Shown: positions 43,280 to 62,266 of the stretch, piece by piece | Layout of the letters: each line of letters starts with the position of its first letter | Position numbering within the stretch: position 1 is the first letter of the stretch | Source of the DNA: Bacteroidales bacterium | GTDB lineage: Bacteria > Bacteroidota > Bacteroidia > Bacteroidales > UBA932 | DNA: 64,000 nucleotides | Direction: 5' to 3' | Assembly (NCBI GenBank): GCA_024398125.1 | Contig: JAKSJO010000010.1 | Span: 1-64,000, forward strand | Made by a program: the position numbers and the translations under genes | The notes under the pieces: model-generated | Database searches by the model: none | Told to the model about the DNA's origin: nothing | The model's input: only the letters and a program-made list of their open reading frames with translations

Positions 43280-45367
43280 TTACTTCACCATGATCTTTTC
43301 GTAGAGGTACTTGAATGCCTGGCGGGTTACCCACATGTCACCCATGTTATGGGTATGGCTAGGGAGATAGAACTGGCTGAAGTCCTTGTTGGCATTGAAG
43401 AGAGCGTTTACTACCTGGAGGGTAGAGGTAGGGTCGACGTTGTCATCAAGTTCTCCGTTCATGAGGAGGAGATCACCCTGGAGAAGGTGTGCGTTGGTGA
43501 CATTGGAGTTTTCGTCATACCAAGGACCGATAGGGTAGCCCATCCACTGCTCATTCCACCAGATCTTGTCCATGCGGTTGTCATGGCAGCCGCACATTGC
43601 AACACCGACCTTGTAGAACTCAGGGTGGAACAGGAGGGCAGACATTGTGTTCTGGCCACCTGCTGAGTATCCATAGATACCAACCTTGTCGAGGTCGAGG
43701 TACTTGTACTGCTTCTGGGCAGCCTGCATCCAGAGGATACGGTCAGGGAAGCCTGCGTCCTTGAGGTTGCGGAAGGCAACGTCCTGGAATGACTTGCTGC
43801 GGTTGTCGGTACCCATACCGTCGATGGTTACAACAACGAAGCCGAGTCCCTGGAGGAAGCTGTTGCGGGTGTATGCCTCGAAATCCTTTACAACGTGGTT
43901 GTCGTGAGGACCTGCATAGATGTACTCGATTACTGGATACTTGCCCTTTGCCTTGAAGTTTGCAGGGCGGAAAATGGTACCCCAGATGTCGGTCTTGCCA
44001 TCGCGGCCCTTTGCAACGAATACCTCAGGCATGGTGTAGCCGGTAGCGAGGAGGCGGCTGATGTCGGCCTTTTCGAGCTGCATTACAACTGTACCGTCCT
44101 GTGCGCGGAGTACGGATGTAGGAGGAAGGTCTGGACGTGAATAGCTGTCAACGAAATACTTTGCGTCTGGGCTGAGGCTGACGGTGTGGTTAGCGTTCTC
44201 AGGAGTGAGGTCGGTAACCTTGCCGTTGAAGTCAAGACGGATGAGATGCTTGTTGTATGGGTCCTCACCCTGTGGCTTGCCGCCCTTCTCGTTGATTGCG
44301 TGGAGGCCGTTGGCGTCAGCGAGGAGGTAACCCTCCTTCTCGTTCACATAGTATACGGTGCGGATGTTCCACTCGCCCTTGTCGATCTGGCTGATTGCGC
44401 CGGTATAGAGGTCTACCATGTAGAGGTGACGCCAGTCGTCGCGCTCGGAAGCCCAGAGGGCACGCTTGCCGTCCTCGAAATAGTAGCGGTAGCACTCGTT
44501 GTAGTAAACGAAGGTATTGGTCTTCTCTTCAGCGGCGATGCGGGTCTTGCCGGTGGCTGCGTCGACTGCTACGAGCTGGTAGAGCTGATGGCCGCGCTGG
44601 TTGTACTCGAAGGTGAAGTAGTCGCTCTTAGGAGACCACTGGCCGAAACGGAGGTTGAACTGGTTGCTGAAAGGACGGTTGTCGACTGCAATCTGCTTCT
44701 TTGCAACTGCATCGAAGAGAGCAACCTCTTCCTGTGGGAGGCGGTCACCTGGCTTTGCATAGTCGAGCCAGCGGAGCTTTGGCTGGATCTGGTCCTCTGG
44801 AGAAGAGGCGATGAGCGGAATCTGACGCTCCTGGACAACCTCGAACTTGGTAGCGGCAATCTTCTTGCTGTCCGGTGACCAGATGACAGCGTTGTATGGG
44901 AACTGGGTGGTTCCGTCAAAGCTGAGCTGGATTGCGCCAGGACGGCGGGTCTGTGCCTGTGGGCCGCGTGGAGCTGCAGATGGAGCCTCTGACTGTGATC
45001 CCTCGTATGGAGCGATCCATACGTTGTTGTCAAGGATATATGCCTCCCAGTCGCCATCAGGAGAAACGGCAGCCTGGGCGTCGCCGCGCCAGTTGTATGG
45101 ACGTCTCTCGGCAGGCTGGAGAGACTCGACAGCGGTCTTGGTCTTGGTTGCAGGGTTTACGATGTAGCTCTGCATTCCGTTTTCTTCACGTACTGTGTAA
45201 CCGAAAGTGCCGTCCTGATTCCACTGAGGAGTCACAGCACCATGAAGGACAAGGTCTCTGAGAGAAGACGCGTCCTTTACCTTGTCCCATTTAGCATCGA
45301 AGCTCTGGGCAGCTGCTGCGGTGGCGAACATGCCGAGTGCAGCACAGATGAAAATGATCTTTTTCAT
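43280..45367 (-). CDS. S9B dipeptidyl peptidase IV-like, secreted
   Basis: 695 aa, signal peptide ending AAAAQ. N-terminal beta-propeller to about residue 440, then the hydrolase domain: Ser568 in GYSAGG, Asp641 in GELDDNVDP, His about 673 in SHTHNMG. DPP IV enzymes remove X-Pro or X-Ala dipeptides from peptide N-termini. It is the last gene of the 14-kb operon and overlaps the preceding macroglobulin-like gene by 1 bp, so it is translationally coupled to the TonB module. Confidence 0.88.
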   Translation of the reverse strand: MKKIIFICAALGMFATAAAAQSFDAKWDKVKDASSLRDLVLHGAVTPQWNQDGTFGYTVREENGMQSYIVNPATKTKTAVESLQPAERRPYNWRGDAQAAVSPDGDWEAYILDNNVWIAPYEGSQSEAPSAAPRGPQAQTRRPGAIQLSFDGTTQFPYNAVIWSPDSKKIAATKFEVVQERQIPLIASSPEDQIQPKLRWLDYAKPGDRLPQEEVALFDAVAKKQIAVDNRPFSNQFNLRFGQWSPKSDYFTFEYNQRGHQLYQLVAVDAATGKTRIAAEEKTNTFVYYNECYRYYFEDGKRALWASERDDWRHLYMVDLYTGAISQIDKGEWNIRTVYYVNEKEGYLLADANGLHAINEKGGKPQGEDPYNKHLIRLDFNGKVTDLTPENANHTVSLSPDAKYFVDSYSRPDLPPTSVLRAQDGTVVMQLEKADISRLLATGYTMPEVFVAKGRDGKTDIWGTIFRPANFKAKGKYPVIEYIYAGPHDNHVVKDFEAYTRNSFLQGLGFVVVTIDGMGTDNRSKSFQDVAFRNLKDAGFPDRILWMQAAQKQYKYLDLDKVGIYGYSAGGQNTMSALLFHPEFYKVGVAMCGCHDNRMDKIWWNEQWMGYPIGPWYDENSNVTNAHLLQGDLLLMNGELDDNVDPTSTLQVVNALFNANKDFSQFYLPSHTHNMGDMWVTRQAFKYLYEKIMVK

Positions 45368-47058
45368 TATTTGTTGATTGTGATTTTCTGGGTTGCAAAG
45401 ATAGGGTTTCCTTCGGAATCCACTCCCTCTATCTTGAGCATGTAGTCTCCAGGAATATGAGGAATCTGGAACTTGTATGATTCTGATGCTCCGGCGTCGA
45501 GCTTGACGAGAGGATGCCAGAATGCGGTCTGGCGGTAATCCGGCTCATTCTTGGAGTCTATGGACATGCCATTGATAATACCAGGTACAGCGGCTCCCTT
45601 GTATGCTACGACACGTACATCCGGAGTGAATTTCATCGATTGCAGGTTGCGTCCGTAAGTCGTGAAATTGACGATGCCGTCATAATAACGTGCGCCGATA
45701 TAGAAGCGGGAGGTATAAATGTCTACTGTCTTTATGAGAAGAGGATCATAGGTGAGAATCTGCTCATGGTCAAAGATTGGAACGCCGTCAACCATAAGGA
45801 GAGCTGTTCCTTGGGAGAACGATGCTCTCTTGAATGAGTCGTTCACGAGTACGTTGAGATGGCGCTTGTCCTCATTTCCCTTTCTGATCCTTAGCTCTGG
45901 GATGAACTCAACGATGACCTCCTCCATTGTAGGGAATCGGGTATAGTCGTCAAGGGCGTAGGACCTGCACTCTCCACTGAAAAGAAGGCTTGGACGTATT
46001 TCAAGGAAATCAGTTATAGCCTCGCTTTCAAATGTCGCCCCAAGCTGGGATGCTGTACTGCGAGCCTCGATGTCGCTGCGCATGCTTTCAGAGAGAATAA
46101 GGCTTGGAATCTCGCCTGGATTCACGTCCACGAAAGGGGACAGTATCTCGACGTGGGCGGCAGATCCTTCCCTCTTGTCTTCTATCTCGCAGATGAGGTC
46201 CTTGTTTCCATATATGTTGGAAGTGTAGAATTTCATGCTTCCGTCAGCCGCAATCGTACATGAATAGACGTCTGATTTGTCTCCAGGTGCAGAGATGAAG
46301 GCAATTCGTCCTTCCATATTGGCGACTTCTGCATCAGGAATGCCTGCTACGCGGGCCCTGATGATCTCTCCTTCGTAATCGGGAGTCATTTCATCATACA
46401 TCGCTGGACCATGGGCATCAGCTGCCATGAAACCTGCAAGACCGATGTTCCCAGGTTCGGAAAGACCGTCGGTACGTACTATGGATACATCCAGCATCGC
46501 GTCTGAGGCTCCCTTGTTTGTGAGTTCAAGACTCATGCTTGATCCTATGCGGGTGGCGCCGGTCAATGTCATCGAGACTGATCCGCTTGAAGCGGGCTGC
46601 TCGGCCTTGGCGGCAGAGAATGAGCCGGCGTCAGCAATCTCGACACCCTTCTCCACTCTTTCTCCTCCATAAGGGTTGATGATGGTTATTATCCTTGCAG
46701 CAGAGGCAGGATTGCAATCCTTGTGTGTGAGCCCGACCTTGGTATAGGCAAGAAGACTGTAATTGCCTGTAGGAAGGTTGCGTGGAAGCTCTATCTCGGC
46801 ACAGCCTCGGCCACCCACCAGAGCCGCACGCCCGGTGGCTGCAAGACCGGAAGTGGAGTGAAGCTCCAGATAGGCGGTCATGCTGAAGCTGGAAAGCTTG
46901 CCGTCGTTGCCGATGCTGTACGCGGAACAGTGGATATTCTCTCCTGCAATATATATCTGTCTGTCGGTGGAGATGTAGACTCTCTCACCGCTTGCCTGGG
47001 CACTTGCCAGGAATGTTACTGTCGTAAACAGTATGCTTATGATATGCTTGAGTCTCAT
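45367..47058 (-). CDS. Macroglobulin (MG2)-like protein with barrel-less plug domain, copy 1
   Basis: 563 aa, signal peptide ending SAQAS. The N-terminal domain has the MG2 pattern RVYISTDRQIYIAGENIHC and YLELHSTSGL. Near residues 420-475 comes LLMVDGVPIFDHEQIL ... VDIYTSRFYIGARYYDGIVNFTT, the pattern of the second half of a TonB-receptor plug, but no barrel follows, only a short beta-sandwich (FQIPHIPGDYMLKIEGVD). Clear paralogue of 51519-53198. Probably a surface or periplasmic partner of the adjacent receptor. Confidence 0.7.
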   Translation of the reverse strand: MRLKHIISILFTTVTFLASAQASGERVYISTDRQIYIAGENIHCSAYSIGNDGKLSSFSMTAYLELHSTSGLAATGRAALVGGRGCAEIELPRNLPTGNYSLLAYTKVGLTHKDCNPASAARIITIINPYGGERVEKGVEIADAGSFSAAKAEQPASSGSVSMTLTGATRIGSSMSLELTNKGASDAMLDVSIVRTDGLSEPGNIGLAGFMAADAHGPAMYDEMTPDYEGEIIRARVAGIPDAEVANMEGRIAFISAPGDKSDVYSCTIAADGSMKFYTSNIYGNKDLICEIEDKREGSAAHVEILSPFVDVNPGEIPSLILSESMRSDIEARSTASQLGATFESEAITDFLEIRPSLLFSGECRSYALDDYTRFPTMEEVIVEFIPELRIRKGNEDKRHLNVLVNDSFKRASFSQGTALLMVDGVPIFDHEQILTYDPLLIKTVDIYTSRFYIGARYYDGIVNFTTYGRNLQSMKFTPDVRVVAYKGAAVPGIINGMSIDSKNEPDYRQTAFWHPLVKLDAGASESYKFQIPHIPGDYMLKIEGVDSEGNPIFATQKITINK

Positions 47059-47064
47059 GTTGAC

Positions 47065-48243
47065 TTACAAATCGTGGTTATTGATCCAGAATTCCGGTTT
47101 CTTTCGTGTTCCTCCCTTTGAGGTGCAGTCTACGCACCTCTTTCTTGTCCACATATATCCTCCATTCATGGTATAATAGACAGGACGCTTTCCTTCCTCC
47201 CAATAGGCTCTTTGCCAGTTGAAATCTTCGATAGATTCAAGCTCGTCTATGTCTCTCTTTCCAGGGATGTAGAAGAACTCCTTCTCATTTTCATAAAAAA
47301 TGCGTTTCTGGACCATTGTTCCGGCTCCGATATATCCTGCGACGAATAATGTGGTGTCGTTTTCGTTGCGGAGATTGCCTCGCATCTCACTTGGATTCGG
47401 AGAGAAAAGGTCCCCGTTATAGTCGGATACGATTGCGAGATGCTCCAGATACTTGTGGTGCTCTTCGGAAATGCTCATGACACCTGCGGTCAGGCAGTAG
47501 ATGTAGGAAATCCTTTCATCGCTGCGTGTCATCTTCACAAGCGGCATTGTCACCATATCCGAGGCAAGAGCGTGTGTGTCGAAAACGTTGAGCTTTGATT
47601 CAACCTCTTTCTTCCAACAGTAATAGTTTGGATGTTCGTTTTGAACCAACTCGCCGGGATCATTGCTCCTTTTGTCGTTAGGTATGTACAGCAGGCTCTG
47701 CATATAGTCAGCCTTGTATTCCCAGTCCTCGCGCAAGGCAAGACGGTAATAACCTTCACCGCCGTTGCCGTGGACGCTCATGTTTACGACAAACTGGTTC
47801 TCTTCTTCGTCCATGACATAGTTGAGCGAGTCGATTGCACATGCAGGATACACGTCAACCCATGAAGAAATATATGATTGGTTGTTTTCCAGGTTGACTG
47901 CGCGCAGACGGTATCTGCGTGAAGGGTCTGCATCGGTAAGGTCAACGAAGGATGTTCCAGGCTTGAAGAAATCGGAATTCCAGCCATTCTTCGCTTTGGT
48001 TCCGATCCAGGAGCGGCCCATGTCATCTTCAACGGTGAAAGAGGCGTTTATTGTTGTTCTTCCCTCTTCCGAGTTGCTGATGGCCTTGAGTGGGTACATC
48101 GCAAAAGACGAAACCGCACCGACGTTGATGTATCCTTCAATCGCAACACCTTCGAATCCCGTAAGCTCCTCAGTATTGTCGATAGGGTAGATGCATGCGC
48201 TGAGCATGAGTCCAACCGATATGAGTAATGCTAATCTTTTCAT
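47065..48243 (-). CDS. DUF4249 lipoprotein, copy 1
   Basis: 392 aa, lipobox LSAC (Cys16). The N-terminal beta-sandwich (VAIEGYINVG, INASFTVEDDMG), the DVYPACAIDSLNYV segment and the FSPNPSEMRGN plus GYIGAG blocks are shared with the copy at 53202-54359 and typical of DUF4249. C-terminal CVDC pair. DUF4249 lipoproteins commonly sit beside STN-type TonB receptors, but their ligand is unknown. Start overlaps the receptor stop by 1 base. Confidence 0.8.
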   Translation of the reverse strand: MKRLALLISVGLMLSACIYPIDNTEELTGFEGVAIEGYINVGAVSSFAMYPLKAISNSEEGRTTINASFTVEDDMGRSWIGTKAKNGWNSDFFKPGTSFVDLTDADPSRRYRLRAVNLENNQSYISSWVDVYPACAIDSLNYVMDEEENQFVVNMSVHGNGGEGYYRLALREDWEYKADYMQSLLYIPNDKRSNDPGELVQNEHPNYYCWKKEVESKLNVFDTHALASDMVTMPLVKMTRSDERISYIYCLTAGVMSISEEHHKYLEHLAIVSDYNGDLFSPNPSEMRGNLRNENDTTLFVAGYIGAGTMVQKRIFYENEKEFFYIPGKRDIDELESIEDFNWQRAYWEEGKRPVYYTMNGGYMWTRKRCVDCTSKGGTRKKPEFWINNHDL

Positions 48244-50900
48244 CAGAATTTCATGTTGAGGTTGATGTATGGGATCTGGGTGGCGAACACGGAAATCTTA
48301 TATCCGTTGATGTTGGTACCGCCTCCGGATGAGGTGTAGAATATTGAGTACGCATTCTTGCGTCCGGTGACGTTATAAACGCCAAAGGTCACGGTCATGT
48401 GGGTGAGCTGTTTGAGATAGTGGCTTGGGTCGACATTGAATGCAAGGTCCATGCGGAAATAGTCAGGGATGCGTCTGCCATTACGCTCTGAGTAGGCGAG
48501 TCTCCAGCCACCTTCATACCAGTACTTGGCGATAGGGATGGTAACAGGGCGTCCTGTTGAGTAGTCGATATTGACAGACATGCTGTAGCGATGGGTGAAC
48601 TTGTAGTTGCCGACCATCTTGAAGTCATGTGGCTTGTCATGGGCGGCACGATACCAGTCGCCTCCGTTGATGGTGTCGGCACCGCGGTCTTCTGTCTCTC
48701 TAAGGAAGGTTCTTGCCCATGTGTATGAGATCCATCCGTTCAGCTTTCCAATGTTCTTGCGGGCCATGAGCTCGACTCCGTAAGCCTTGCCCTGGGTTTC
48801 CACCAGATCGTCCGCAAGGTTCGGATTCATGCTGAGCTGGGCGCCTGACTTATAGTCCAGATAATGCTCCATTTCTTTCCAGTAGCCCTCGACGGACAGG
48901 TCAAGCTTGTTGTCCGCGATGGTCCAGTAAAGACCTGATGCCGCCTGCCAGCCGCTCTGCGGACGGATGCGGTCATCGCTCAGCTTCCATGTATCCATAG
49001 GGGAGATGGATGCGGAGTTTGTGATCATGTGTATATTCTGGTGCATTGTGTTGAGTCCCGCCTTGAAGCTGAAGTTGTCGCGGAAAGAGTATTTTCCAGA
49101 CAGTCTCAGGTCTGCGGAAGGATACTTCGTGCCACTTGGAACCAGGAACATGTTCATGCGGGTTCCATATTCGAAGGCCAGTTTGCCTGATCCTGGCGTC
49201 CAGCTGTCGCTCAGGAAGAGCGATGCCTCGATTGCGGTCTCCTGGTCCAGAGTCACAGGGACGACTGTGGATTCTTCACCGTATGGAGTCATTGTACCCG
49301 GGTTCATCAGGTAGTATATTCCCTGGGCTCCATAGCCGAACTTGTGATGATCTCCGACCTGATGGCTGAAAATCAGCTTGCCGTAGGCCTGGTTCACATC
49401 GGTATTCATCGTGTATGCCCCGTTGCCAAAAGTGTGGTCGTCAAGAATGTTGCCATACGAGTCCACGCCGGTTACCGCGGACATGGTAAGGTTTCCGCTG
49501 AGCTGGCTGCGCAGCTTCAATGATGCGTTGAAGTTCGAATAATGGAAGGTCGTATCGGAGCTGAACGAGAAACGGTCACTCGATGCGTAGACATTGGCGT
49601 GGATATCATTCTTTTCGTTGAACTTGTGGCTGAGTCCGAAATTGACGTCGTAGAATGACGCCGATCCGCCTGAATATCCACTGTTCTCCGGGAGCAATCC
49701 AAGCATCCAGTCCGAGTAGGTGGTACGTCCTCCAAGAACGAAGGTTGTCTTGTCCTTGATTATCGGTCCCTCAAGGCTGAAGCTGCTGGTGAGGAGGCCA
49801 AGGCCGAGCGTTCCGGAAATCTTCTTGCTGTTTCCTTCCTTGCTGCGTACATCGAGCACGGATGATATGCGTCCTCCGAATTCGGCTGGAATCGAGCTCT
49901 TGTAAAGCTCCATCTCGCTGACGATATCAGGATTGAATGCGGAGAAGATACCGAACATGTGGCTCGGGTTGAAGATCGTACCGTCATTCATCAGGATGAG
50001 GTTCTGGTCAACGGATCCACCACGTACGTTGTATCCACTGGACGCCTCGCCGACTGTCTTGACTCCCGGCAAGGTCAATACGGCCTTGAGGACGTCAGCC
50101 TCTCCGAAAGCAGTCGGAATCTTTCGTATGGTGTTCATGCGGACCTTTTCGATACCCATGCGGGAATCGCGGTGATGCGATACGCCCTCGGCTGATACCA
50201 CGGCACCTGTCAGTGTCGTTATCATCTCCTTCATGGTCACGTCAAGGCCGCCGTCATCGTTCACTTTCAGGTTCAGCTCCAGTTCCTCGAGTGAGTATCC
50301 GTTGAACTTGAGAACATTGTCTCCGACAGGAAGCTGGAGACGGTAGAAACCGTATGCGTCGGTAACGGCATAGGCTGAGCCGTCAGGAGTGTGGACCGCA
50401 GCGCCGAGGATAGGCTCTCCGGAGACAGCGTCACGAACGTATCCGTGGACGAAAGCCTTGCCCGTACGTCCCTCCTTACGGTCTCCGATTTCGTAGATCT
50501 TGTTCTGGAAAGTTGCCAGCGTGCTTTCATCCTCAAGAAGGGTTTCGGTCTCCACTGCCTTCGCGAAGTAGTCGTAAGGAAGGGTAGAATAGATCAGCCT
50601 GCCGCGGTAGATGAAATATTCACCATTGTACAGATACACAGTGTAACCCATTTCGCGAAGCTCATTCAAGGCCTTTTCCATGAAAGCTCCCTTGTTCTCC
50701 GAGATGGTGAAGGTAGAAACGTCTTTCTCATCCTTGCGGAAATAGATGGTCTCGTTGTACTCCTTGCGCAGGAAGCTGACCAGCGAGTCGGAATTGATTC
50801 GCTTTACGTCTAGCGGCGGGTCCTGTGGCCTGGCCGCGTTCAGTCCTGTCATGGACAGGAGGAGCAGCGCTATGCTCAGTATGGTCCTAGTTGATTTCAT
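48243..50900 (-). CDS. TonB-dependent receptor with STN and CarboxypepD_reg domains, copy 1
   Basis: 885 aa, signal peptide ending GLNAA. STN/secretin-N domain at about 30-100, carboxypeptidase-regulatory beta-sandwich at about 150-240 (GYVRDAVSGEPILGAAV), plug at about 255-365 (VLTLPGVKTVGEASSGYNVRGG, EFGGRISSVLDVRSKEG), then the barrel ending in NMKF. Outer-membrane import driven by TonB. The STN domain normally contacts an anti-sigma protein, yet none is encoded nearby. It overlaps the secreted-protein gene upstream by 14 bp. Confidence 0.9.
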   Translation of the reverse strand: MKSTRTILSIALLLLSMTGLNAARPQDPPLDVKRINSDSLVSFLRKEYNETIYFRKDEKDVSTFTISENKGAFMEKALNELREMGYTVYLYNGEYFIYRGRLIYSTLPYDYFAKAVETETLLEDESTLATFQNKIYEIGDRKEGRTGKAFVHGYVRDAVSGEPILGAAVHTPDGSAYAVTDAYGFYRLQLPVGDNVLKFNGYSLEELELNLKVNDDGGLDVTMKEMITTLTGAVVSAEGVSHHRDSRMGIEKVRMNTIRKIPTAFGEADVLKAVLTLPGVKTVGEASSGYNVRGGSVDQNLILMNDGTIFNPSHMFGIFSAFNPDIVSEMELYKSSIPAEFGGRISSVLDVRSKEGNSKKISGTLGLGLLTSSFSLEGPIIKDKTTFVLGGRTTYSDWMLGLLPENSGYSGGSASFYDVNFGLSHKFNEKNDIHANVYASSDRFSFSSDTTFHYSNFNASLKLRSQLSGNLTMSAVTGVDSYGNILDDHTFGNGAYTMNTDVNQAYGKLIFSHQVGDHHKFGYGAQGIYYLMNPGTMTPYGEESTVVPVTLDQETAIEASLFLSDSWTPGSGKLAFEYGTRMNMFLVPSGTKYPSADLRLSGKYSFRDNFSFKAGLNTMHQNIHMITNSASISPMDTWKLSDDRIRPQSGWQAASGLYWTIADNKLDLSVEGYWKEMEHYLDYKSGAQLSMNPNLADDLVETQGKAYGVELMARKNIGKLNGWISYTWARTFLRETEDRGADTINGGDWYRAAHDKPHDFKMVGNYKFTHRYSMSVNIDYSTGRPVTIPIAKYWYEGGWRLAYSERNGRRIPDYFRMDLAFNVDPSHYLKQLTHMTVTFGVYNVTGRKNAYSIFYTSSGGGTNINGYKISVFATQIPYINLNMKF

Positions 50901-51522
50901 GTCCTGCGAGTTTTGAAGCTTTTGATCTGCTCAGCTTGCGAAGACGTCCATCCTTCACGGTATAGAAGCGGACACGCCTTTCAAAATAGTCGTAGTAGCT
51001 CAGATTGAAGTTGGAGACTGGATATCCGAGGCTGTCTTCGCTGATAGGCAGAGCGGATTCTGTGAATATCTTTGCGATTCTTCTGTAGACAGGCTGACTG
51101 CCGCCAAGGATGACCTCGTAGAAACCCTCCTCGGCTCCCTTGACGCCCTGTCTCTCCAGATCGGTGAATCCGGATTCACCAATGCTGAGGGCATCGATGT
51201 ATTCCCGCTCAAGCCTTATAGCCTGACTTATGTCATCCTTCTTGACCAGGACTTCGTTGGTGTTTGCGTCAATGTTCAGGAGCACGTCATAGTATTCCTT
51301 TCCATTGTAGGTCAGGTTGCCTGGAATGAAGCGCTCCTGGGCCCAGTATGGATGTCCATTGTGCGGAAGTTCATACTGAAGTGCTCTTCTGCCACGGAAG
51401 ATCAGAGCATTTTCACTCGCATCTGAGATGTACTCCGAGTAATCTTTGCCGGAATGCTGCTGCGCTTCAGCTGACAAAGACAGGAGTAGCAGAATCAATG
51501 TGTATATCTTTAAAGGTTTCAT
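50887..51522 (-). CDS. Secreted ~210-aa protein of the TonB module, copy 1
   Basis: 211 aa, signal peptide ending SAEAQ. Conserved with 56988-57614: an N-terminal block (IFRGRRALQYELPHNGHPYW), NGKEYYDVLLNIDANTNEVLV, and a C-terminal FNLSYYDYFERRVRFYTVKDG followed by a basic tail. Predicted beta-rich and periplasmic or extracellular; no domain recognised. It precedes and overlaps the receptor gene, and its start overlaps the stop of the second copy's macroglobulin-like gene by 4 bp. Confidence 0.65.
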   Translation of the reverse strand: MKPLKIYTLILLLLSLSAEAQQHSGKDYSEYISDASENALIFRGRRALQYELPHNGHPYWAQERFIPGNLTYNGKEYYDVLLNIDANTNEVLVKKDDISQAIRLEREYIDALSIGESGFTDLERQGVKGAEEGFYEVILGGSQPVYRRIAKIFTESALPISEDSLGYPVSNFNLSYYDYFERRVRFYTVKDGRLRKLSRSKASKLAGHEIN

Positions 51523-53198
51523 AATACTGTGAATCCATATCTTTCCAATACAGGTGTTCCGTCTGCGGCAAGTCCCTCTATCTTTATTTCATATTCACCC
51601 GCTGTCTCGGGGATTCTCACGCTGATGGTCTTGTCCTCACCGCTCTTGATATTGATGAAGGGATGCCAGAAAGCGGTCATCCGGAAGTCGGGGTAGTCTT
51701 CAGGGCTGATACCTTCGCATGTGTATGCAGAAGGATATGAAGTACCCTGGAAGTCCACTATTCTTACGTTAGGATTGAATTTCATGGATGGAAGATTGCG
51801 CTTGTAGGTCACAAAGTTCACAATACCCTCGTAATAGCGGGATCCGATGAAATAGCGGGATGGATATATGTTGATGCTTTCGACAAGAAGAGGGTCGTAG
51901 CCGAGCACTTTCTCATGGTCGAAGATCGGAACGCCATCCACCATCAGCAGAGCCGTTCCATGAGAATAATAGGAGTTGTGATAGGAGTCGCCCATCATCA
52001 CGAATATCTTGCGGCTGCCGTCCTCCTTGCGGGCACGCAGCTCGGTTACATATTCAGTTATCACTTCCTCCATCTGGGGGAAACGGGTATAATCGTCCAG
52101 CATGTATGTCTTTGCCAGCTCCGGGAAGAGGAGATTCTCCCTCTTAGGCAGGAACTCGGACAGAGTATCCGAAGCGAAGGCCTTCTCAATCTGGGCGGCA
52201 TATGCGCGCTGGGTGATGTCCTGGGCTACAGTCTCGCTGAGCAGCATCTCCGGTATCGTTCCCGGGGCAATGTCCGCGAAAGGAGAAACGATTTCGATGT
52301 GGGCCGGAGAGTCCGCCGGTTCATTTTCGATCTCGCAGATGAGATCCTTGTGACCGTAAATGTTGTTGGTGAAGAAACGGAGCCTGCCATCATCCTCCAT
52401 CTTTGCAGAGTAGATGTCGGATTTCTCTCCCGGGGCAGAGATGAATGCAAAGTGACCTTCCCTTAGTCTCAGGGCATCGGCATCGAGTCCTACAACCCTT
52501 GCGTCTATTATCTCGCCTTCGTATTCCGCTACGTTGTCATTCTCGATGGTGCCTTCATATCCGGTCGTTTCAAGGAAATGGGCAAGGCCTTTGGTTTCCG
52601 GCTCCAGAATTCCGTCCTTGCGGTATACGGAAACGGCCAGGTCGGCATCCTTTGAAGATGACAATGTCACCTGTATATCCTTTCCTGCCTTGGCGGAAGC
52701 GGGGATGAAGGCCTTGGCTATGTCTGTGCCCTTGAAGGCTCCGGCGGCATTGCGGGCAGATACATACTCGCTCTCGCTTGCAATGTGTACTCCTGAACGA
52801 AGCGTGCTGTATGGATTTATGATGGATACTACAGTGCCTCCATCTGCCGGCCTGGACTCTTTGCAGCCAAGCTCGAGGGCTGTATATGCGAAAAGCTTGT
52901 AGTTGCCGCTCGGGATGTTTTTAGGGAGCTCCAGCTCCGCGCAGCCGCGTCCTTTGCTGAGCGCGACACGCCCGGTACATGCAAGACCATCCGCTGAATG
53001 GAGCTCGACGTACGCGATGGCACTCAGGTCGGAGATGACAGCCTGTTTCGAGTCAAGGCACCAAGCCGAGCATCTCAGGGTTTCGCCTGCGACGTATATC
53101 TGCCTGTCGGTTGAAAGATAGACCCTCTCGGCACCGTCTCCGGCAAAGGCGTAGGCGCTGAGCAGGCAGGACAATATGGTAACAGCAATCTTTTTCAT
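51519..53198 (-). CDS. Macroglobulin (MG2)-like protein with barrel-less plug domain, copy 2
   Basis: 559 aa, signal peptide ending AFAGD. Same order as copy 1: MG2 domain (RVYLSTDRQIYVAGETLRC), central region with EYEGEIIDARVVGLD, plug-like segment (LLMVDGVPIFDHEKVLGYDPLLVESINIYPSRYF), short C-terminal beta-domain (IPETAGEYEIKIEGLAADG). The plug-like part is the best conserved stretch between the copies, suggesting it is the functional contact site. Follows the DUF4249 stop by 3 bp. Confidence 0.7.
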   Translation of the reverse strand: MKKIAVTILSCLLSAYAFAGDGAERVYLSTDRQIYVAGETLRCSAWCLDSKQAVISDLSAIAYVELHSADGLACTGRVALSKGRGCAELELPKNIPSGNYKLFAYTALELGCKESRPADGGTVVSIINPYSTLRSGVHIASESEYVSARNAAGAFKGTDIAKAFIPASAKAGKDIQVTLSSSKDADLAVSVYRKDGILEPETKGLAHFLETTGYEGTIENDNVAEYEGEIIDARVVGLDADALRLREGHFAFISAPGEKSDIYSAKMEDDGRLRFFTNNIYGHKDLICEIENEPADSPAHIEIVSPFADIAPGTIPEMLLSETVAQDITQRAYAAQIEKAFASDTLSEFLPKRENLLFPELAKTYMLDDYTRFPQMEEVITEYVTELRARKEDGSRKIFVMMGDSYHNSYYSHGTALLMVDGVPIFDHEKVLGYDPLLVESINIYPSRYFIGSRYYEGIVNFVTYKRNLPSMKFNPNVRIVDFQGTSYPSAYTCEGISPEDYPDFRMTAFWHPFINIKSGEDKTISVRIPETAGEYEIKIEGLAADGTPVLERYGFTVL

Positions 53199-53201
53199 GT
53201 C

Positions 53202-54359
53202 CTATTTGTGTGTATTCGGCCAGTAATCGGGCTTGTTCTTGGTTCCTCCGGCAAGCGTGCAGTCGACGCAGCGCTTGTCTGCCCATTCATATCCCTGGAC
53301 AGGGTTTCCGCTTACAGGCAGCATGGATCCATACTTCCATGAACGATACCACATCGGAGGGGACAGGTTCTCGAGTTCATAGGTCTGGTGCTTCCTTTCG
53401 TAAAAATGGTGGTCGTTGTCATCGTAGAATACCCTTGCGGCGGAAACCTTTCCGGCTCCGATGTAACCGACCACGAACTCTGTCGTGTCGTTCACGCAGC
53501 GGATGTTGCCGTGCATTTCGCTCGGGTTAGGCGAGAAGAGGCTGCCGGTATAGTTGGAAACATCATTGAGATGCTTGAGGTATGCGTGATGCTCTCTGCT
53601 GATCGTCATTGCTGCGACGTTGAGGCAGTAGATGTAGGACAGCTTGTCGTCTGATGCAGGCACAATGTGGATTCTTTCGTTGATGAGCCTGTTCTCGCTG
53701 AGTTCTTCGGTACTGATCACGTTCAGCTCAGGAATCTCGTGTGTCTTCCAGCAGTAGTATGTATTCTCTCCGTTCTCGTAGCGCGCAAGCATTCCTGTGC
53801 TCTTGAACTCATCCGGAAGGTCCTGGGATGGCGGGAGGTAGTAATGTGTCGCATGATAGAGAGTCGTATATTCCCAGGCCTCGTCCATCATCAGCTGATA
53901 GAATCGTGTATCATCCGATCCATGGAGACTGATGCTGAGATCAAGCGATCTGCCCTCGGCATTGGTGACGTAGGAAAGGCTGTCGATCTCGCAAGGTTCA
54001 AGAATGGTCTGCCATGAGGATACGTATTCCTTGCCGTTCATCAGGTTTGTGGCGTGGAGACGGTATCTTCTGTCCGCGGGGGCGGTTATGAGCTTCAGGT
54101 CGCCATTCGCATTTGCCTTGTAGGATCCGCCCTTGTCATCTTCAACGGTAAAGAGTGCCGGGATGGATTCTGGCTGGAGATGGCTTGTGCCTTCGAAAAC
54201 CTGCATCTCGGACATCTTGAAATGACTGGTTCCTCCGATGACGATGTCTCCCTCGATGACTATGGAGTCTGTGTCAACCACGTTCACGTCCACCGAGAAA
54301 GGGTAGACGCATGAGACTGCCGCCATCATGGCAGTAAGTATGTATATCAGTCTCTTCAT
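53202..54359 (-). CDS. DUF4249 lipoprotein, copy 2
   Basis: 385 aa, lipobox VSC (Cys17). It shares with copy 1 the blocks YVSSWQTILEPCEIDSLSYV, LFSPNPSEMHGNIRCVND, VGYIGAGKV and a terminal CVDC with Gly-rich context. The central region, where the ligand might bind, differs more. Located between receptor (1-base overlap) and macroglobulin-like gene as in copy 1. Confidence 0.8.
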   Translation of the reverse strand: MKRLIYILTAMMAAVSCVYPFSVDVNVVDTDSIVIEGDIVIGGTSHFKMSEMQVFEGTSHLQPESIPALFTVEDDKGGSYKANANGDLKLITAPADRRYRLHATNLMNGKEYVSSWQTILEPCEIDSLSYVTNAEGRSLDLSISLHGSDDTRFYQLMMDEAWEYTTLYHATHYYLPPSQDLPDEFKSTGMLARYENGENTYYCWKTHEIPELNVISTEELSENRLINERIHIVPASDDKLSYIYCLNVAAMTISREHHAYLKHLNDVSNYTGSLFSPNPSEMHGNIRCVNDTTEFVVGYIGAGKVSAARVFYDDNDHHFYERKHQTYELENLSPPMWYRSWKYGSMLPVSGNPVQGYEWADKRCVDCTLAGGTKNKPDYWPNTHK

Positions 54360-57001
54360 CAGAATTTCAGATTAAGGTTGATGTATGGAACCGGACACGC
54401 GAAAACGGAAATCTTGTATCCATTGATGCTCGTACCGCCTTGATTGGTGTAATAGATCGAATAGGCGTTCTTCCTTCCGGTGACGTTGTAAACTCCCAGG
54501 GTGACGGTCATGTGTGCCAGCTGCTTGAGATAATGGCCAGGGTCGATGTTGAAGGCCATGTCCATGCGGAAGTAGTCAGGAATCCTGTATCCGTTGCGCT
54601 CGGAGTAGGCAAGACGCCAGCCTCCCTTGTACCAGTACTTGGCTACAGGGATGGTCACAGGACGTCCTGTCGAATAGTCTATGTTGAGGGACAGGCTGTA
54701 GCGGTGGGTGAACATATAGTTGCCGACCAGCTTGAAGTCATGCGGCTTGTCGTGTGCCGCGCTGTACCACTTGCCGCCGTTGATGGTTTCGATGCCGCGG
54801 TCCTCCATTTCCTGGAGCAGGGCGCGTGACCATGTGTACGATACCCATCCGTTGAGCTTGCCGAGAGTCTTTCTGGCCATGAACTCGACTCCGTATGCCT
54901 TTCCGCGGGTTTCGACAAGGTCATCGGCCAGGTTCGGGTTCATGCTGAGCATCGCTCCGGACTTGTAGTCAAGGTAATGTGACATCTGTTTCCAGTATCC
55001 CTCAAGAGACAGGTCGACCTTGTTGTCCAGAACTGTCCAGTAGAGTCCGGATGCCGCCTGCCAGCCGCTTTGCGGACGTATGCGCGCATCGCTTATCTTC
55101 CACGTGTCCATAGGCGAGATGGAAGAAGAGTTGGTCAGCATGTGGATGTTCTGGTGCATGCTGTTGAATCCGGCCTTGAAACTCAGGTTGTCGCGGAAGG
55201 AATATTTTCCGGAGATGCGGAAGTCCGGCGCCATGTACGTCGTTCCGCTGTTGAGGAAGGCAGTGAATCGCGTGCCGTACTCCATTGCGAACCTGCGGCC
55301 AGGAGACCATGTGTCTCCCAGGAATGCTGCGGCCTCCAATGCGTTTTCCTTTTCCAGTGCGGCTCCTTCGTACAGAGACATTTCGCCCAGGGCTGTGGTT
55401 ATGCCTGGATTCATATCATAGAAGATGCCCTGGACGCCATAGGAAAGCTTGTGAGTCTGGCTTGCGCTGTAGCTGAATCCGGCTTTCGCATGAGCCTGGC
55501 GGACATCGGTGGCGAGAGTGTAGGCGGTGAATGGATTGCTGTTGTCCTCCAGCCTGTTGGAATATCCGTCGACGCCGGTGCTCAAGGTCATGGTATGACG
55601 CAGGCTGAGCTGGCTGCGCAGCTTGACGGAGGCGTTCAGGTTGGAGTAGCGGAATGTGGTGTCTCCGCTGAAAGAGAACCTGTCCGCAGACCAATAGACG
55701 TTTGCGTGAAGGGAATTGCGCTCGTTGAACCTGTGGGTGATTCCCGCATTGATGTCGCTGAACGATGCCTTTCCGCCATTGTAGCCGCTGTTCTCCGGAA
55801 GCATGTTAAGTATCCAGTTGCTGTATGTGGTTCGTCCTCCAAGCACGAATGTGGTCTTGCCTTTTGCGATAGGGCCCTCCAGACTGAAGCTGCTTGTGAG
55901 CATGCCCAGTCCTATGGTTCCAGCCATCTTGTTGCTGTTGCCTTCCTTGCTGTGTATGTCAAGCACCGATGAGATTCGTCCTCCGAACTCGGCCGGGATG
56001 GAACTCTTGTAAAGCTCCATTTCGTTCACGATGTCAGGGTTGAATGCCGAGAATATGCCGAAAAGGTGGCTTGGGTTGAAAATCGTGCCGTCGTTGAAAA
56101 GGATGAGGTTCTGGTCCACTGCGCCGCCGCGGACATTGAATCCGCTGGAGGCTTCGCCTACAGTCTTCACGCCCGGCAGGGTAAGCACGGCCTTGATGAC
56201 GTCAGCCTCGCCGAACGCTGATGGAATCTTGCGTATGGTGTTCATGCGGACTTTCTCAATGCCCATCCTTGAGTCGCGGTGGTGAGATACACTCTCTGCA
56301 GAGACTACGGCACCTGTCAATGTGGTGACCATTTCCTTCATCGACACGTCCAGTCCGCCATCGTCATGGACAAGCAGGTTGAGCTGGAGTTCTTCGAGGG
56401 AATATCCGCTGAAGTTGAGCCTGTTGTCTCCGACAGGCAGCTGGAGTCTGTAGAATCCGTATGAGTCGGTCACTGCATAGGCGGAACCGTCAGGGCTGTG
56501 CACTGCAACTCCTACGATAGGCTCGCCGGACGCGGCATCGCGGACATATCCCTGGACGAAAGCCTTCCCCTTGCGGCCTTCCTTGTATTCTCCGATCTCG
56601 TAGATCTTGTTCTGGAATGTCACCTGGGTATTTTCATCGTCTCCGTCTCCGTACACTATGTCGGAATTGTCAGGGTCGAAGAATCCGATCGGGAGGTTTG
56701 CCGAGATGGCAGCACCGCGTCTCACGAACCATGAGCCGCTGAAGCTGGAAACGGTGTAGCCCTTGGATCTGAGCTCTTCGAGCGCTGCCTTCACGAAGTC
56801 TTTCCTGTCCGCGCTTACGCTGTAGTCGGACACATCGTCGGCGTCCTTGATGAAATAGACCTTTTCCGCGAAATTGGCTCTTACGAAGCGTACGAGCGAA
56901 TCTGATGAGACTCGCTTGACTTCTACCTGCTGGGCGGACAGCGACGGTATGAATGCGAAAATGCAGGCGAGTACCGCCAGTATGTTCCTAACGTTTCTCA
57001 T
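54359..57001 (-). CDS. TonB-dependent receptor with STN and CarboxypepD_reg domains, copy 2
   Basis: 880 aa from the ATG at 57001; a TTG two codons earlier is possible but the ATG gives the same 14-bp overlap with the upstream gene as in copy 1. Domain order is as in copy 1: STN (VKRVSSDSLVRFVRANF), regulatory beta-sandwich, plug (RKIPSAFGEADVIKAVLTLP), barrel ending NLKF. The plug and the last barrel strands are nearly the same in both copies, while the STN part and several outer-loop regions diverge, pointing to related but distinct ligands. Confidence 0.9.
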   Translation of the reverse strand: MRNVRNILAVLACIFAFIPSLSAQQVEVKRVSSDSLVRFVRANFAEKVYFIKDADDVSDYSVSADRKDFVKAALEELRSKGYTVSSFSGSWFVRRGAAISANLPIGFFDPDNSDIVYGDGDDENTQVTFQNKIYEIGEYKEGRKGKAFVQGYVRDAASGEPIVGVAVHSPDGSAYAVTDSYGFYRLQLPVGDNRLNFSGYSLEELQLNLLVHDDGGLDVSMKEMVTTLTGAVVSAESVSHHRDSRMGIEKVRMNTIRKIPSAFGEADVIKAVLTLPGVKTVGEASSGFNVRGGAVDQNLILFNDGTIFNPSHLFGIFSAFNPDIVNEMELYKSSIPAEFGGRISSVLDIHSKEGNSNKMAGTIGLGMLTSSFSLEGPIAKGKTTFVLGGRTTYSNWILNMLPENSGYNGGKASFSDINAGITHRFNERNSLHANVYWSADRFSFSGDTTFRYSNLNASVKLRSQLSLRHTMTLSTGVDGYSNRLEDNSNPFTAYTLATDVRQAHAKAGFSYSASQTHKLSYGVQGIFYDMNPGITTALGEMSLYEGAALEKENALEAAAFLGDTWSPGRRFAMEYGTRFTAFLNSGTTYMAPDFRISGKYSFRDNLSFKAGFNSMHQNIHMLTNSSSISPMDTWKISDARIRPQSGWQAASGLYWTVLDNKVDLSLEGYWKQMSHYLDYKSGAMLSMNPNLADDLVETRGKAYGVEFMARKTLGKLNGWVSYTWSRALLQEMEDRGIETINGGKWYSAAHDKPHDFKLVGNYMFTHRYSLSLNIDYSTGRPVTIPVAKYWYKGGWRLAYSERNGYRIPDYFRMDMAFNIDPGHYLKQLAHMTVTLGVYNVTGRKNAYSIYYTNQGGTSINGYKISVFACPVPYINLNLKF

Positions 57002-57614
57002 CTGCAATCATTTTTCTTGCCTTGCTGCGTCCGATCTTCTTCAGTGCGCCCTTGCGCTCGGTATACCAGGACTCTCGGAGCGAGAAGTATTGGTTGACGT
57101 TGAAGTTGAAATTGTCAACTTCGTATCCGAGCTTGGCTGGGTTCGGTGCGTCGGACGATTTCTTCAAATCCTTCTTCCTGCAGCAGTACAGCGTGGTACC
57201 TTTTGCATCTATGACTTCGACATATCGGGTCGGCAGTATCGGACTGATGGTCTCCGACAGCGCGAATGAGCGGTCCCCTATGCGGATGTCGCCGACATGG
57301 TCCTGATCCAGCACGATGGCTGCAAGATCATTGTCGAAGACGGCAAGGAGATCCTGAGTGCAGCAGTCTATGTTGAGGAGGATGCCGCTGTATGTCTTTC
57401 CATTGTATTCGACTGAACCGGGCTCGAAACGGCGGCTGTCCCAAAACTGATGCCCGTTGTAGCGGAACTCGTACTGCATGGCGCGGTGACCTCGGTAGAT
57501 GACGGAGTTCTCTCCAGCCTCGGCCATGAAGACGTCATAGCTATGGTTCTGCTGGGCATGCGCGTTGATGCACATCGCCAGCAGAGCGGTCAATAAGGGG
57601 AATAAGGGTTTCAT
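56988..57614 (-). CDS. Secreted ~210-aa protein of the TonB module, copy 2
   Basis: 208 aa from the ATG at 57614 (MKPLFPLLTALLAMCINAHAQ, signal peptide); a TTG at 57623 lies inside the predicted -7 box. It matches copy 1 in IYRGHRAMQYEFRYNGHQFW, NGKTYSGILLNID, FNFNVNQYFSLRESWYT and the basic tail. A CC pair (LNIDCCTQ and LYCCRKK) is particular to this copy. First gene of the 14-kb operon. Confidence 0.65.
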   Translation of the reverse strand: MKPLFPLLTALLAMCINAHAQQNHSYDVFMAEAGENSVIYRGHRAMQYEFRYNGHQFWDSRRFEPGSVEYNGKTYSGILLNIDCCTQDLLAVFDNDLAAIVLDQDHVGDIRIGDRSFALSETISPILPTRYVEVIDAKGTTLYCCRKKDLKKSSDAPNPAKLGYEVDNFNFNVNQYFSLRESWYTERKGALKKIGRSKARKMIADEKR

Positions 57615-57628: not shown

Positions 57629-57660
57629 GTTAAAATCGTGGAGATTATGGAATAATTCCA

Positions 57661-57668
57661 TAACTTTG
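57661..57668 (+). promoter_or_regulatory. -7 box of the epimerase/L-galactose operon
   Basis: TAACTTTG on the plus strand; predicted start near 57675, about 43 nt before the ATG at 57718. It supports that ATG over an upstream in-frame one at 57673. Confidence 0.5.
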
Positions 57669-57717
57669 GGAAATGGCTGCCCGGCGGCCAGAAAAGAAAA
57701 CAATAAAACACGAACAT

Positions 57718-58875
57718 ATGAACAGAAGAGATTTCCTCAAGACCGCTGCAGTGGCTACTGCAGGCTCCGGCCTTCTCTACTCCTGCCGTCCTATCCTGGA
57801 CAAGGGAGAAAGCCTTCCAAAGCCATACAGCATCAACACCCATGGCGCGACAGCCAGGATGAAGCTCAGCTATGCTCCATACGAACTGAAGCTTGCCCAC
57901 ACTTTCACTGTGGCTTCATACTCACGCACCACGACCCCTGACGTCCAGGTGGAGATCGAGTATGACGGATTCATCGGATACGGCGAGGCTTCGATGCCGC
58001 CATATCTCGGCCATACAGTCGAGAGTGTATGCGCATTCCTCGCAAAGGTCGATCTCGAGCAGTTCGCCGATCCATTCTGCATCGAGGATATAATGGCTTA
58101 CGTGGACAGTATCTCCGAAGGCGACGCACCTGCCAAGGCCGCAATCGACATCGCTCTCCATGACCTCGTCGGCAAGCTCCTCGGCCAGCCTCTTTACCGT
58201 ATCTGGGGCTACGATGCAGCAAAGGCCGGCAGCACCACCTTCACCATCGGAATCGACACCGCCGACGTGGTCCGCGAGAAGACCCTCGAGTGTGCGGAGA
58301 AGTTCAACATCCTCAAGGTCAAGGTAGGTCTCGAGAACGACGAGGAGATGATCCGTACCATACGTTCAGTCACCGACCTCCCTCTCGCAGTGGATGCCAA
58401 CCAGGGCTGGAAGGACAAGTACAAGGCCCTCGACGAGATTCTCTGGCTCAAGGAACAGGGTATCGTCATGGTCGAGCAGCCTATGCCTAAGGAGCAACTT
58501 GACGACATCGCATGGGTTACCGAGCGCAGCCCGCTGCCGATCTTCGCCGATGAGAGCTGCCAGCGTCTCTGCGACATCCCTCACCTCAAGGGTGCGTTTA
58601 CCGGAATCAACATCAAGCTCATGAAGTGTACAGGTCTTCTCGAGGCGCGCAAGATGATGACATACGCACGTGCCGAGGGCATGAAGGTCATGGTCGGCTG
58701 TATGACCGAGACCAGCTGCGCGACTACTGCAGCCGCACATCTCAGCCCTGTGATCGATTTCGCCGATCTCGACGGAAACCTCCTTATCGCGAACGACAGA
58801 TTCGAAGGCATGGTTGTCGAGGGTGGAAAGATGATCCTCCCAGACCGTCCGGGTCTTGGTCTCATCAAGCTCTAG
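57718..58875 (+). CDS. Dipeptide (L-Ala-D/L-Glu) epimerase, enolase superfamily, exported
   Basis: 385 aa from the ATG at 57718. The N-terminus NRRDFLKTAAVATAGSGLLYSC is a twin-arginine signal with a lipobox (Cys23), unusual for this normally cytosolic enzyme. Muconate-lactonising-type residues: KxK Lys200/Lys202, metal ligands Asp226 (DANQG), Glu253 (VEQPM), Asp278 (DES), and Lys300 on the opposite face. Members epimerise L-Ala-D-Glu from murein or other dipeptides. It is followed 5 bp later by a transglutaminase-like lipoprotein. Confidence 0.85.
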   Translation: MNRRDFLKTAAVATAGSGLLYSCRPILDKGESLPKPYSINTHGATARMKLSYAPYELKLAHTFTVASYSRTTTPDVQVEIEYDGFIGYGEASMPPYLGHTVESVCAFLAKVDLEQFADPFCIEDIMAYVDSISEGDAPAKAAIDIALHDLVGKLLGQPLYRIWGYDAAKAGSTTFTIGIDTADVVREKTLECAEKFNILKVKVGLENDEEMIRTIRSVTDLPLAVDANQGWKDKYKALDEILWLKEQGIVMVEQPMPKEQLDDIAWVTERSPLPIFADESCQRLCDIPHLKGAFTGINIKLMKCTGLLEARKMMTYARAEGMKVMVGCMTETSCATTAAAHLSPVIDFADLDGNLLIANDRFEGMVVEGGKMILPDRPGLGLIKL

Positions 58876-60308: not shown

Positions 60309-61241
60309 ATGAAATACACAGAACTCGGACATACAGGCATGGTCCTTTCGAACGTCGGACTGGGAGCATCTTCTCTTGGCTCTGTATTCCACAGTATCAA
60401 TGAAAGCGAAGGCATCCAGGCTGTTCATACAGCCGTGGACAACGGAATCAACTTCATCGACGTATCGCCATACTATGGACATCTCAAGGCTGAGACCGTG
60501 CTCGGCAAGGCCCTCAAGGAAATCGACCGCAACCGCTACTATCTTTCGACCAAGGTCGGCCGCTACGGCAAGGACGGTGTCAACACCTGGGACTACAGCG
60601 GCAAGCGCGCAAAGGAAAGCGTATATGAGAGCATGGATCGTCTCAATGTCGACCATATCGATCTCATCAACGTGCACGACATCGAGTTCGCCGACCTCGA
60701 GCAGGTATGCAACGAGACCCTTCCGGCTCTTGTTGACCTGCGCAACGAGGGCGTGGTCAGCCATGTCGGCATCACCAACCTTACCCTCCGCCATTTCAAG
60801 TATGTAATCGACCATGTGCCTGCAGGCACAGTCGAGAGCGTGCTTTCATTCTGTCACTATACCCTCAATGACGACGCTCTTGTCGATTATCTCGACTACT
60901 TCGAGTCAAAGGGAGTCGGCGTGCTCAACGCATCCCCTTACTCTATGGGTCTTTTGACCAAGAGAGGCGCTCCGGACTGGCATCCTGCACCAGGCGCGCT
61001 CGTACGCCTGAGCCGCAAGGCAGTCGCATACTGCGAGTCAAAGGGAATCGACATCGAGAGGCTGGCAGTCAACTTCTCAATGAACAATCCACGCATCGCC
61101 AGCACCCTGTTCAGCACCTCCAAGCCGGAGAACGTGCTCAAGACCATTGCATACGCCGAGGAAGCGGTCGATTCTGAGATCATGGCTGAGGTCCGCAAGA
61201 TCTTCGAGCCAGGATATCGTGACACCTGGGTAAACAGCTAG
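60309..61241 (+). CDS. Aldo/keto reductase, probable L-galactose dehydrogenase
   Basis: 310 aa, cytosolic. Catalytic tetrad Asp51, Tyr56 (DVSPYYG), Lys82 (STKVGRYG) and His123 (VHDIEF). The sequence resembles plant L-galactose dehydrogenase and bacterial L-fucose dehydrogenases (GLGASSLGSVF, HDIEF, SPYSMGLLTKRGAPDWHPA). In Bacteroides vulgatus a homologue oxidises L-galactose to L-galactono-1,5-lactone. The linked lactonase-type, dehydrogenase and FucP-like genes support the same job here. Confidence 0.82.
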   Translation: MKYTELGHTGMVLSNVGLGASSLGSVFHSINESEGIQAVHTAVDNGINFIDVSPYYGHLKAETVLGKALKEIDRNRYYLSTKVGRYGKDGVNTWDYSGKRAKESVYESMDRLNVDHIDLINVHDIEFADLEQVCNETLPALVDLRNEGVVSHVGITNLTLRHFKYVIDHVPAGTVESVLSFCHYTLNDDALVDYLDYFESKGVGVLNASPYSMGLLTKRGAPDWHPAPGALVRLSRKAVAYCESKGIDIERLAVNFSMNNPRIASTLFSTSKPENVLKTIAYAEEAVDSEIMAEVRKIFEPGYRDTWVNS

Positions 61242-61246
61242 AAACA

Positions 61247-62263: not shown

Positions 62264-62266
62264 CCT

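Follow-up and report, generated by a model that had tools for sequence, protein, structure and literature searches.

A tandemly duplicated four-gene cassette around TonB-dependent receptors in a Bacteroidales genome: a probable outer-membrane import system with two further conserved subunits

The stretch of DNA considered here, called the window, comprises positions 1 to 64,000 of contig JAKSJO010000010.1 (assembly GCA_024398125.1; 2.34 Mb in 49 contigs) of a Bacteroidales bacterium of the lineage UBA932. Its minus strand carries, from 57614 down to 43280, nine co-directional genes, in which a cassette of four, named here SMALL, TBDR (TonB-dependent receptor), DUF4249 and MG2, occurs twice (copies A and B) and is followed by a gene for an S9 peptidase. 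An earlier sequence-only reading had placed these nine genes, and all of them were confirmed as minus-strand open reading frames (ORFs), each uninterrupted and with one terminal stop:

56988-57614, minus strand: SMALL_A, 208 amino acids (aa), signal peptide by eye, without a conserved lipid Cys, first gene of the operon
54359-57001, minus strand: TBDR_A, 880 aa TonB-dependent receptor with N-terminal domain (STN-like by eye only), CarboxypepD_reg, Plug and barrel
53202-54359, minus strand: DUF4249_A, 385 aa lipoprotein, candidate surface lid (Pfam DUF4249, 86.8 bits)
51519-53198, minus strand: MG2_A, 559 aa, signal peptide by eye, MG2-like N-terminal domain and plug-like C-terminal stretch, barrel-less
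50887-51522, minus strand: SMALL_B, 211 aa
48243-50900, minus strand: TBDR_B, 885 aa, 72% identity with TBDR_A
47065-48243, minus strand: DUF4249_B, 392 aa lipoprotein (Pfam DUF4249, 66.5 bits)
45367-47058, minus strand: MG2_B, 563 aa
43280-45367, minus strand: S9 peptidase, 695 aa, DPPIV_N and Peptidase_S9, coupled to the operon in the lineage of the window only

The junctions from SMALL_A to S9 measure, in order, -14, -1, +3, -4, -14, -1, +6 and -1 nucleotides (nt), and the whole stretch therefore reads as one translationally coupled operon. The measured values bear out the 14-bp and 1-bp overlaps described earlier and the coupling of S9 at the operon end, where its junction to MG2_B is -1 nt.

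TBDR is a member of the TonB-dependent receptor family. Plug was found in 13/13 cassette receptors at E<=1 and lies over the Pfam cut-off in both receptors of the window. Barrel models match the receptors in part (TonB_dep_Rec_b-barrel in 6/13, OMP_b-brl_4 in 8/13), and in a profile comparison the receptor from residue 227 to its end matches another TBDR. The domain labels first given to these proteins held over Pfam cut-offs for CarboxypepD_reg and Plug in the receptors and for DUF4249, DPPIV_N and Peptidase_S9; the STN label did not, as the domain expected of a FecA-type transducer was matched in Pfam at E<=1 by none of the 13 receptors, in whose N-terminal domain the STN-like pattern is seen by eye only. 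The N-terminal Cys of DUF4249 is invariant in 16/16 aligned proteins; a lipobox expression (40/109 DUF4249 proteins) was not used, since it overlooks lipoproteins in which the alignment clearly shows the Cys. Sequence comparison found no solved relative of DUF4249. In the 16 aligned proteins, the C-terminus also carries a CxxC that never varies, with a Pro...Trp tail behind it; a further Cys is invariant too, and a disulfide or metal site is possible. Cassettes hold from one to four DUF4249 genes, and in loci L155 and L161 the receptor and MG2 are separated by four consecutive DUF4249 genes, as though one channel were provided with several lids.

The label MG2/plug was only partly borne out. 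In the window, the MG2 domain remains below the Pfam cut-off for this alpha-2-macroglobulin domain (26.2 and 27.6 vs 32.8 bits), yet it was matched in 21/21 aligned members at E<=0.1. The plug stretch was matched weakly, in 4/21 with a best E of 0.006; a distant 890-aa MG2 relative is over the Plug cut-off at the collinear place. Compared with the solved MG2 domain of alpha-2-macroglobulin (2p9r), the protein shows a weak N-terminal resemblance (E 0.11), but only ~80 N-terminal residues were matched and the rest were not. SMALL has no Pfam or NCBIfam model over cut-off and no match among solved structures (best E 0.49). Several other assignments were considered and set aside. MG2 or SMALL as receptor duplicates gave only low-probability N-terminal or signal-peptide matches in profile comparison. 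For type IX secretion system cargo, no C-terminal sorting domain (TIGR04183) was found on MG2 or SMALL proteins at NCBIfam E<=0.1. No PADLOC defence-system match was obtained at E<=0.01 for the six cassette proteins that formed the query, which excluded the receptors and S9. As for accessory proteins of the BAM complex, PMC12611786 describes other protein types.

The tandem duplication proposed for the locus was confirmed by DNA repeats in register ~6.1 kb apart, and the A and B proteins share 37% (SMALL), 72% (TBDR), 40% (DUF4249) and 46% (MG2) identity. The same tandem with S9 was found in L065, a separately assembled metagenome-assembled genome (MAG) from horse faeces, in which the first SMALL lies outside the sequence available; the tandem in the window is therefore not an assembly artefact. 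L065 also contains a third receptor fragment. The A/B divergence is focused in the three partner proteins, in the receptor N-terminus (N-terminal 120 residues, 28-42% identity) and in one barrel stretch (residues ~481-600, 42-55%), as compared with 80-93% in residues 161-400 (CarboxypepD/plug) and 57-88% in the rest. Because the L065 orthologues and 104 aligned cassettes vary at the same receptor places, the A/B pattern represents the usual constraint of the family and is not specific to the duplication. The pattern fits the suggestion that the cassette was duplicated for two ligands but does not demonstrate it. Between window and L065, identity amounts to 97.1% for S9, 84-91% for TBDR (84.0% for TBDR_B), 74-76% for MG2, 68% for SMALL_B and 65-68% for DUF4249, and dN/dS indicates purifying selection in every case that allowed a calculation (saturation affects SMALL_B, and SMALL_A has no L065 partner). 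The synonymous divergence of S9 (0.54) is clearly below that of the cassette genes (1.07 or more). A quick MG2 tree pairs the A copies of window and L065 with each other, and likewise the B copies; all four fall into one group (SH-aLRT 100 each). A separate group (98), with two halves of its own, is made up of the six rows from L037, L038 and L040, so tandem duplication took place at least twice. In these three loci, a DcuC-family carrier gene, YfcC-like but below the NCBIfam cut-off, lies between the two tandem cassettes. The tandem loci L077/L091, L078, L104 and L145 suggest further duplications.

The conservation of the cassette was followed with the MG2 protein in 99 genomes of the family, the own genome included, and in a phylum sample of 392 genomes, 54 of which have an MG2 match at E<=1e-20, with contexts fetched for a part. 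Further loci were 79 from the best 80 of 588 candidates in named genome contigs, mostly Bacteroidales or Bacteroidia MAGs and many from herbivore guts, together with fetched contexts. Gene order was scored with profiles on six-frame ORFs, and loci were collapsed at 95% MG2 identity from 154 to 132, which removes most cases of one genome present under two names (genome and locus series, e.g., L033 and L077). The full four-gene cassette, in order, was found in 108 of the 132 non-redundant MG2 loci: 99 have SMALL-TBDR-DUF4249-MG2, five have two DUF4249 genes and four have a SMALL-receptor fusion. Another 12 loci are cut by a sequence end (contig end, flank limit or fetched region). The cassette occurs in seven family codes of the class (f1, f4, f5, f7, f11, f12 and f13) and, within the genus, in 2/7 sampled genomes. 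In the opposite direction, with SMALL as the starting point, the strong matches of SMALL and those of MG2 mark the identical 28 of the 99 family genomes; for this comparison, matches weaker than 1e-30 were set aside after the tables had been seen (21 weak SMALL rows and all MG2 rows from 7.5e-8 down). The sequence-only reading would have fallen had DUF4249 and MG2 not been co-conserved with such receptors elsewhere; the comparison was run and did not refute it. Coupling is likewise general. Measurement was possible where the profile extended to the start of the protein; there, 80/81, 80/82 and 75/76 cases at the three junctions overlap or are separated by at most 30 nt. At the SMALL-TBDR junction, -4 nt is commonest (53/81), and the 14-nt overlap of the window is an extreme.

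From this pattern of co-inheritance it appears probable that the four subunits constitute one outer-membrane TonB import system, present in the window as two diverged tandem copies in one operon. Several observations weigh against it. The 132 loci were selected by MG2 and so exaggerate the share of such receptors that have the full set of partners, and 12 of them depart from the cassette order: seven rows, from L072, L084, L100, L109 and L118, have a permuted or split cassette, SMALL is absent in L153 and one L144 copy, in L162 and L163 the MG2 proteins, of 900 aa, are distant and have no cassette around them, and one more row is the second, distant MG2 protein of L118. When MG2 and the receptors were compared by profile, no plug match emerged. 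Elsewhere in the own genome, TBDR and DUF4249 also occur as pairs with no SMALL or MG2 match adjoining, and SMALL relatives exist away from any cassette, so SMALL need not be dedicated to a receptor in general; in 15 fetched contexts of weaker SMALL relatives, none has an MG2 gene and only L175 has a receptor gene, three genes away. The TBDR-DUF4249 pairs and the cassette-free SMALL relatives would also suit a reading in which TBDR and DUF4249 alone form the working importer, the two-gene unit proposed in PMC11003636, and SMALL and MG2 are neighbours with separate envelope roles. This explanation is unlikely, though, given the order kept across seven families, the coupled junctions and the five SMALL-TBDR fusions described below. 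In the rearranged L084, L100, L109 and L118, DUF4249 stands upstream of SMALL-TBDR-MG2, and L084, L109 and L118 also have a second, distant MG2-type protein. The cassette-free SMALL relatives of L164-L178 are ~220-255 aa long with MG2 not nearby, and in L176 three SMALL genes lie near one another.

The position of SMALL can be approached through natural fusions. In five loci (L107, L108 with its near-copy L131, L130, L141 and L118), SMALL is the N-terminal part of the receptor polypeptide. A profile of the receptor N-terminal domain, built from 13 receptors, finds, at E<=1e-3, 97/108 cassette receptors that lack a fusion (as many as 13 of the 97 are in the profile) and 0/6 fused ones, the near-copy included; the usual N-terminal domain is thus missing in SMALL-fused receptors. 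The N-terminus of a TonB receptor faces the periplasm. Fused at that end, SMALL is most likely periplasmic, a placing likelier than the outside location implied when it was first called a secreted protein. A distance comparison by mirror-tree partial correlations is ambiguous and too saturated to weigh in either direction. It gave 0.40 for barrel and DUF4249 and 0.47 for MG2 and the receptor CarboxypepD domain; SMALL correlates at 0.39 with DUF4249 vs 0.14 with the receptor N-terminal domain, contrary to what a periplasmic SMALL docked there would predict, and this counts against the import system as drawn here. The same N-terminal region allows for a different function, in which the cassette is a cell-surface signalling receptor, with SMALL and the N-terminal domain passing occupancy on to a regulator, either in addition to import or in its place. 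The domain changes fast, looks STN-like by eye and is replaced by SMALL in the fusions. Signalling nevertheless seems improbable: STN was matched by none of the 13 receptors, the flanking genes examined revealed no recognisable sigma/anti-sigma pair (the search was not exhaustive), and the sigma gene that lies next downstream in 2/63 neighbours is of the housekeeping sigma-70 type by eye.

Bacteroidota importers have mostly been described as a barrel plus lid, and the cassette is best read as one of this known kind, a TonB importer with a DUF4249 lid; what is new is the two further conserved subunits. Its analogy to the SusCD glycan importers and the RagAB peptide importer consists in a TonB-dependent barrel with a lipoprotein partner. 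Unlike them, the cassette has no SusD/RagB-family protein and has two extra exported subunits. The proposed parallel to SusCD without SusD was borne out, as no SusD model matched any of the nine window proteins in Pfam or NCBIfam. SusD genes are present next to some cassettes, though not within them, e.g., in L045 (opposite strand) and L054; the neighbour search misses distant SusD proteins and was not used to judge SusD. A DUF4249 lipoprotein gene beside the receptor gene is the arrangement that defines a receptor with a DUF4249 lid, and the cassette has it. The same arrangement of a TonB-dependent transporter gene beside a DUF4249 gene is seen in BT2172 and BT2173, which were proposed to work together (PMC11003636); the cassette differs in the near-constant SMALL and MG2, in a SMALL that can be fused and in one to four DUF4249 genes, a comparison of arrangement and not of the BT2172 sequence itself. 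According to PMC10404256, the vitamin B12 importer BtuB-BtuG also combines a TonB receptor with a surface lipoprotein lid that is not SusD; its passages on the importer mention neither SMALL nor MG2. A literature search that excluded bioRxiv and most subscription journals found DUF4249 named in one paper and, among titles and the beginnings of abstracts, no description of the four-gene cassette, although a preprint cited in PMC11003636 (Price et al. 2023, bioRxiv), reportedly on lid families, may already note the link between DUF4249 and MG2.

In the proposed import system, TBDR would act as the TonB-driven channel and the DUF4249 lipoprotein most likely as a surface lid over the barrel. SMALL would be a periplasmic partner docking at the N-terminal end of the receptor, under the plug, and in some species it is built into the receptor in place of the N-terminal domain. 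MG2, an exported, non-lipidated, macroglobulin-like protein, would most likely be periplasmic or bound to the receptor and might serve in hand-over or gating, which is the weakest step of the scheme. The second copy is probably for a second ligand. A stronger version can be considered, in which the cassette is a separate importer class of four obligate subunits, SMALL does the job of the receptor N-terminal domain, either in trans or as a cis fusion, and MG2 is a second gate or cargo-catcher. We regard this version as tentative, with a chance somewhat short of even.

A further issue is the role of the peptidase. The locus had been interpreted as an outer-membrane complex that captures and trims peptides or proteins, with S9 as a working part. 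The idea of one system of co-conserved genes stood; the peptidase as a part of it was not supported, and trimming and a peptide cargo are conjectural. In favour of the capturing and trimming complex, S9 is coupled by a -1 nt junction and kept in L065, and neighbours of a related kind occur elsewhere, namely Dpp7-like S46 peptidases (2 loci; below the NCBIfam cut-off), M28 peptidases (3 loci), dipeptide epimerases (6) and transglutaminase-fold proteins (5), as well as a different S9-family ORF divergent to the cassette in L055. S9 is also commoner in cassette-positive than in cassette-negative family genomes (10/28 vs 8/71), as is the epimerase (26/28 vs 28/71). However, the S9 of the window lies near a cassette only in the window and L065, of 123 cassettes. 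Its orthologues (47-66% identity) were found in 17 other family genomes, nine of which have the cassette too; adjacency was seen in none of the nine, and is possible in G067, where the contig ends beside one MG2 gene. In G083, both lie on one contig ~80 kb apart. The genus-level associations of S9 and of the epimerase with the cassette are not significant (p 0.12 each).

The name DPP4 and the trimming activity implied by it are tentative. The Glu motif of DPP4 binds the substrate N-terminus. Like 2d5l, which we take to be the Porphyromonas-type dipeptidyl peptidase IV, S9 has a DPPIV_N propeller and an S9 catalytic domain with aligned Ser, Asp and His. No Glu of S9 falls opposite the REFG stretch of 2d5l, where the alignment is of low confidence. 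Being near the cassette in the window and L065 only, S9 is regarded as a lineage-specific passenger or addition and not as part of the module, and a capturing and trimming complex built around it is doubtful, even if S9 may process imported material. With neighbour evidence that is lineage-specific only, peptides remain the likeliest single guess for the cargo, a guess more apt to be wrong than right.

Two further features lie upstream of the operon:

57645-57663, no strand: perfect inverted repeat (9+9 nt, 1-nt gap), possible operator
57673-58875, plus strand: dipeptide-epimerase-type enzyme, divergent neighbour, closest solved relative 3iji, membership in the system not shown

The inverted repeat sits in the 58-bp space between SMALL_A and the epimerase gene, and a box resembling TAnnTTTG, the Bacteroides promoter motif, lies directly ahead of the SMALL_A start. 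Scans showed no excess over shuffled sequences for sigma-70 promoters (8 vs 11.7) or terminators (12 vs 12.1). The epimerase-type enzyme is very close to 3iji, which we take to be a Bacteroides dipeptide epimerase, and a gene for a transglutaminase-fold protein comes next; genes of both types also precede cassettes in L110, L115, L135 (same place as L045) and L136. Of the 99 family genomes, 54 have the epimerase; 26 of the 54 are cassette-positive, and in two of these 26 it adjoins the cassette. Epimerase and S9 were rejected as parts of the system, being common in the family, rarely adjacent and not significantly associated at genus level. An arginine link to the cargo was also rejected. Arginine, citrulline or ornithine genes (ornithine aminotransferase, carbamate kinase and CtlX types) lie within 6 kb of 25/123 cassettes, but the ornithine aminotransferase gene adjoins rpsL in cassette-negative genomes too (e.g., G037, G045, G098, G075 and G030), and carbamate-kinase-like genes adjoin it in cassette-negative G074 and G097. 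The place beside rpsL thus exists without the cassette, and the arginine genes are a shared neighbourhood, not evidence of cargo.

The frequent position beside housekeeping genes (rpsL, pnp and rpoD) could also mean that the cassette is an aid to outer-membrane assembly or export and not an importer. The ribosomal protein S12 gene is the next gene downstream in 21/63 co-directional neighbours, and the polynucleotide phosphorylase (PNPase) gene is the next upstream in 2/41, directly so in two loci of other families, most likely L146 and L148. A housekeeping role of this sort is very improbable, as it agrees poorly with the patchy distribution (28/99 family genomes and 2/7 sampled genomes of the genus) and the fast sequence change, and rpsL beside the cassette is a local arrangement, since in the own genome rpsL lies elsewhere. 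In the window, pnp (27867-30239) is ~13 kb from the cassette. Other genes of the window include an IS605 OrfB/TnpB-like gene with a Cas12f1-like TNB domain (33220-34437) and, in a row at 60309-63193, aldo/keto reductase-like, zinc alcohol dehydrogenase-like (by eye) and amidohydrolase (Pfam) genes, which resemble a sugar-acid pathway.

If the cassette is one import system, its keeping of two further exported proteins across seven families would mean that some importers need more parts than a barrel and a lid. One of the two, SMALL, is a cassette member that falls into no Pfam or NCBIfam family searched. The cassette provides a set of partners that can be put to the test, natural fusions by which the topology is fixed, and duplicated copies with which the choice of cargo can be asked about.

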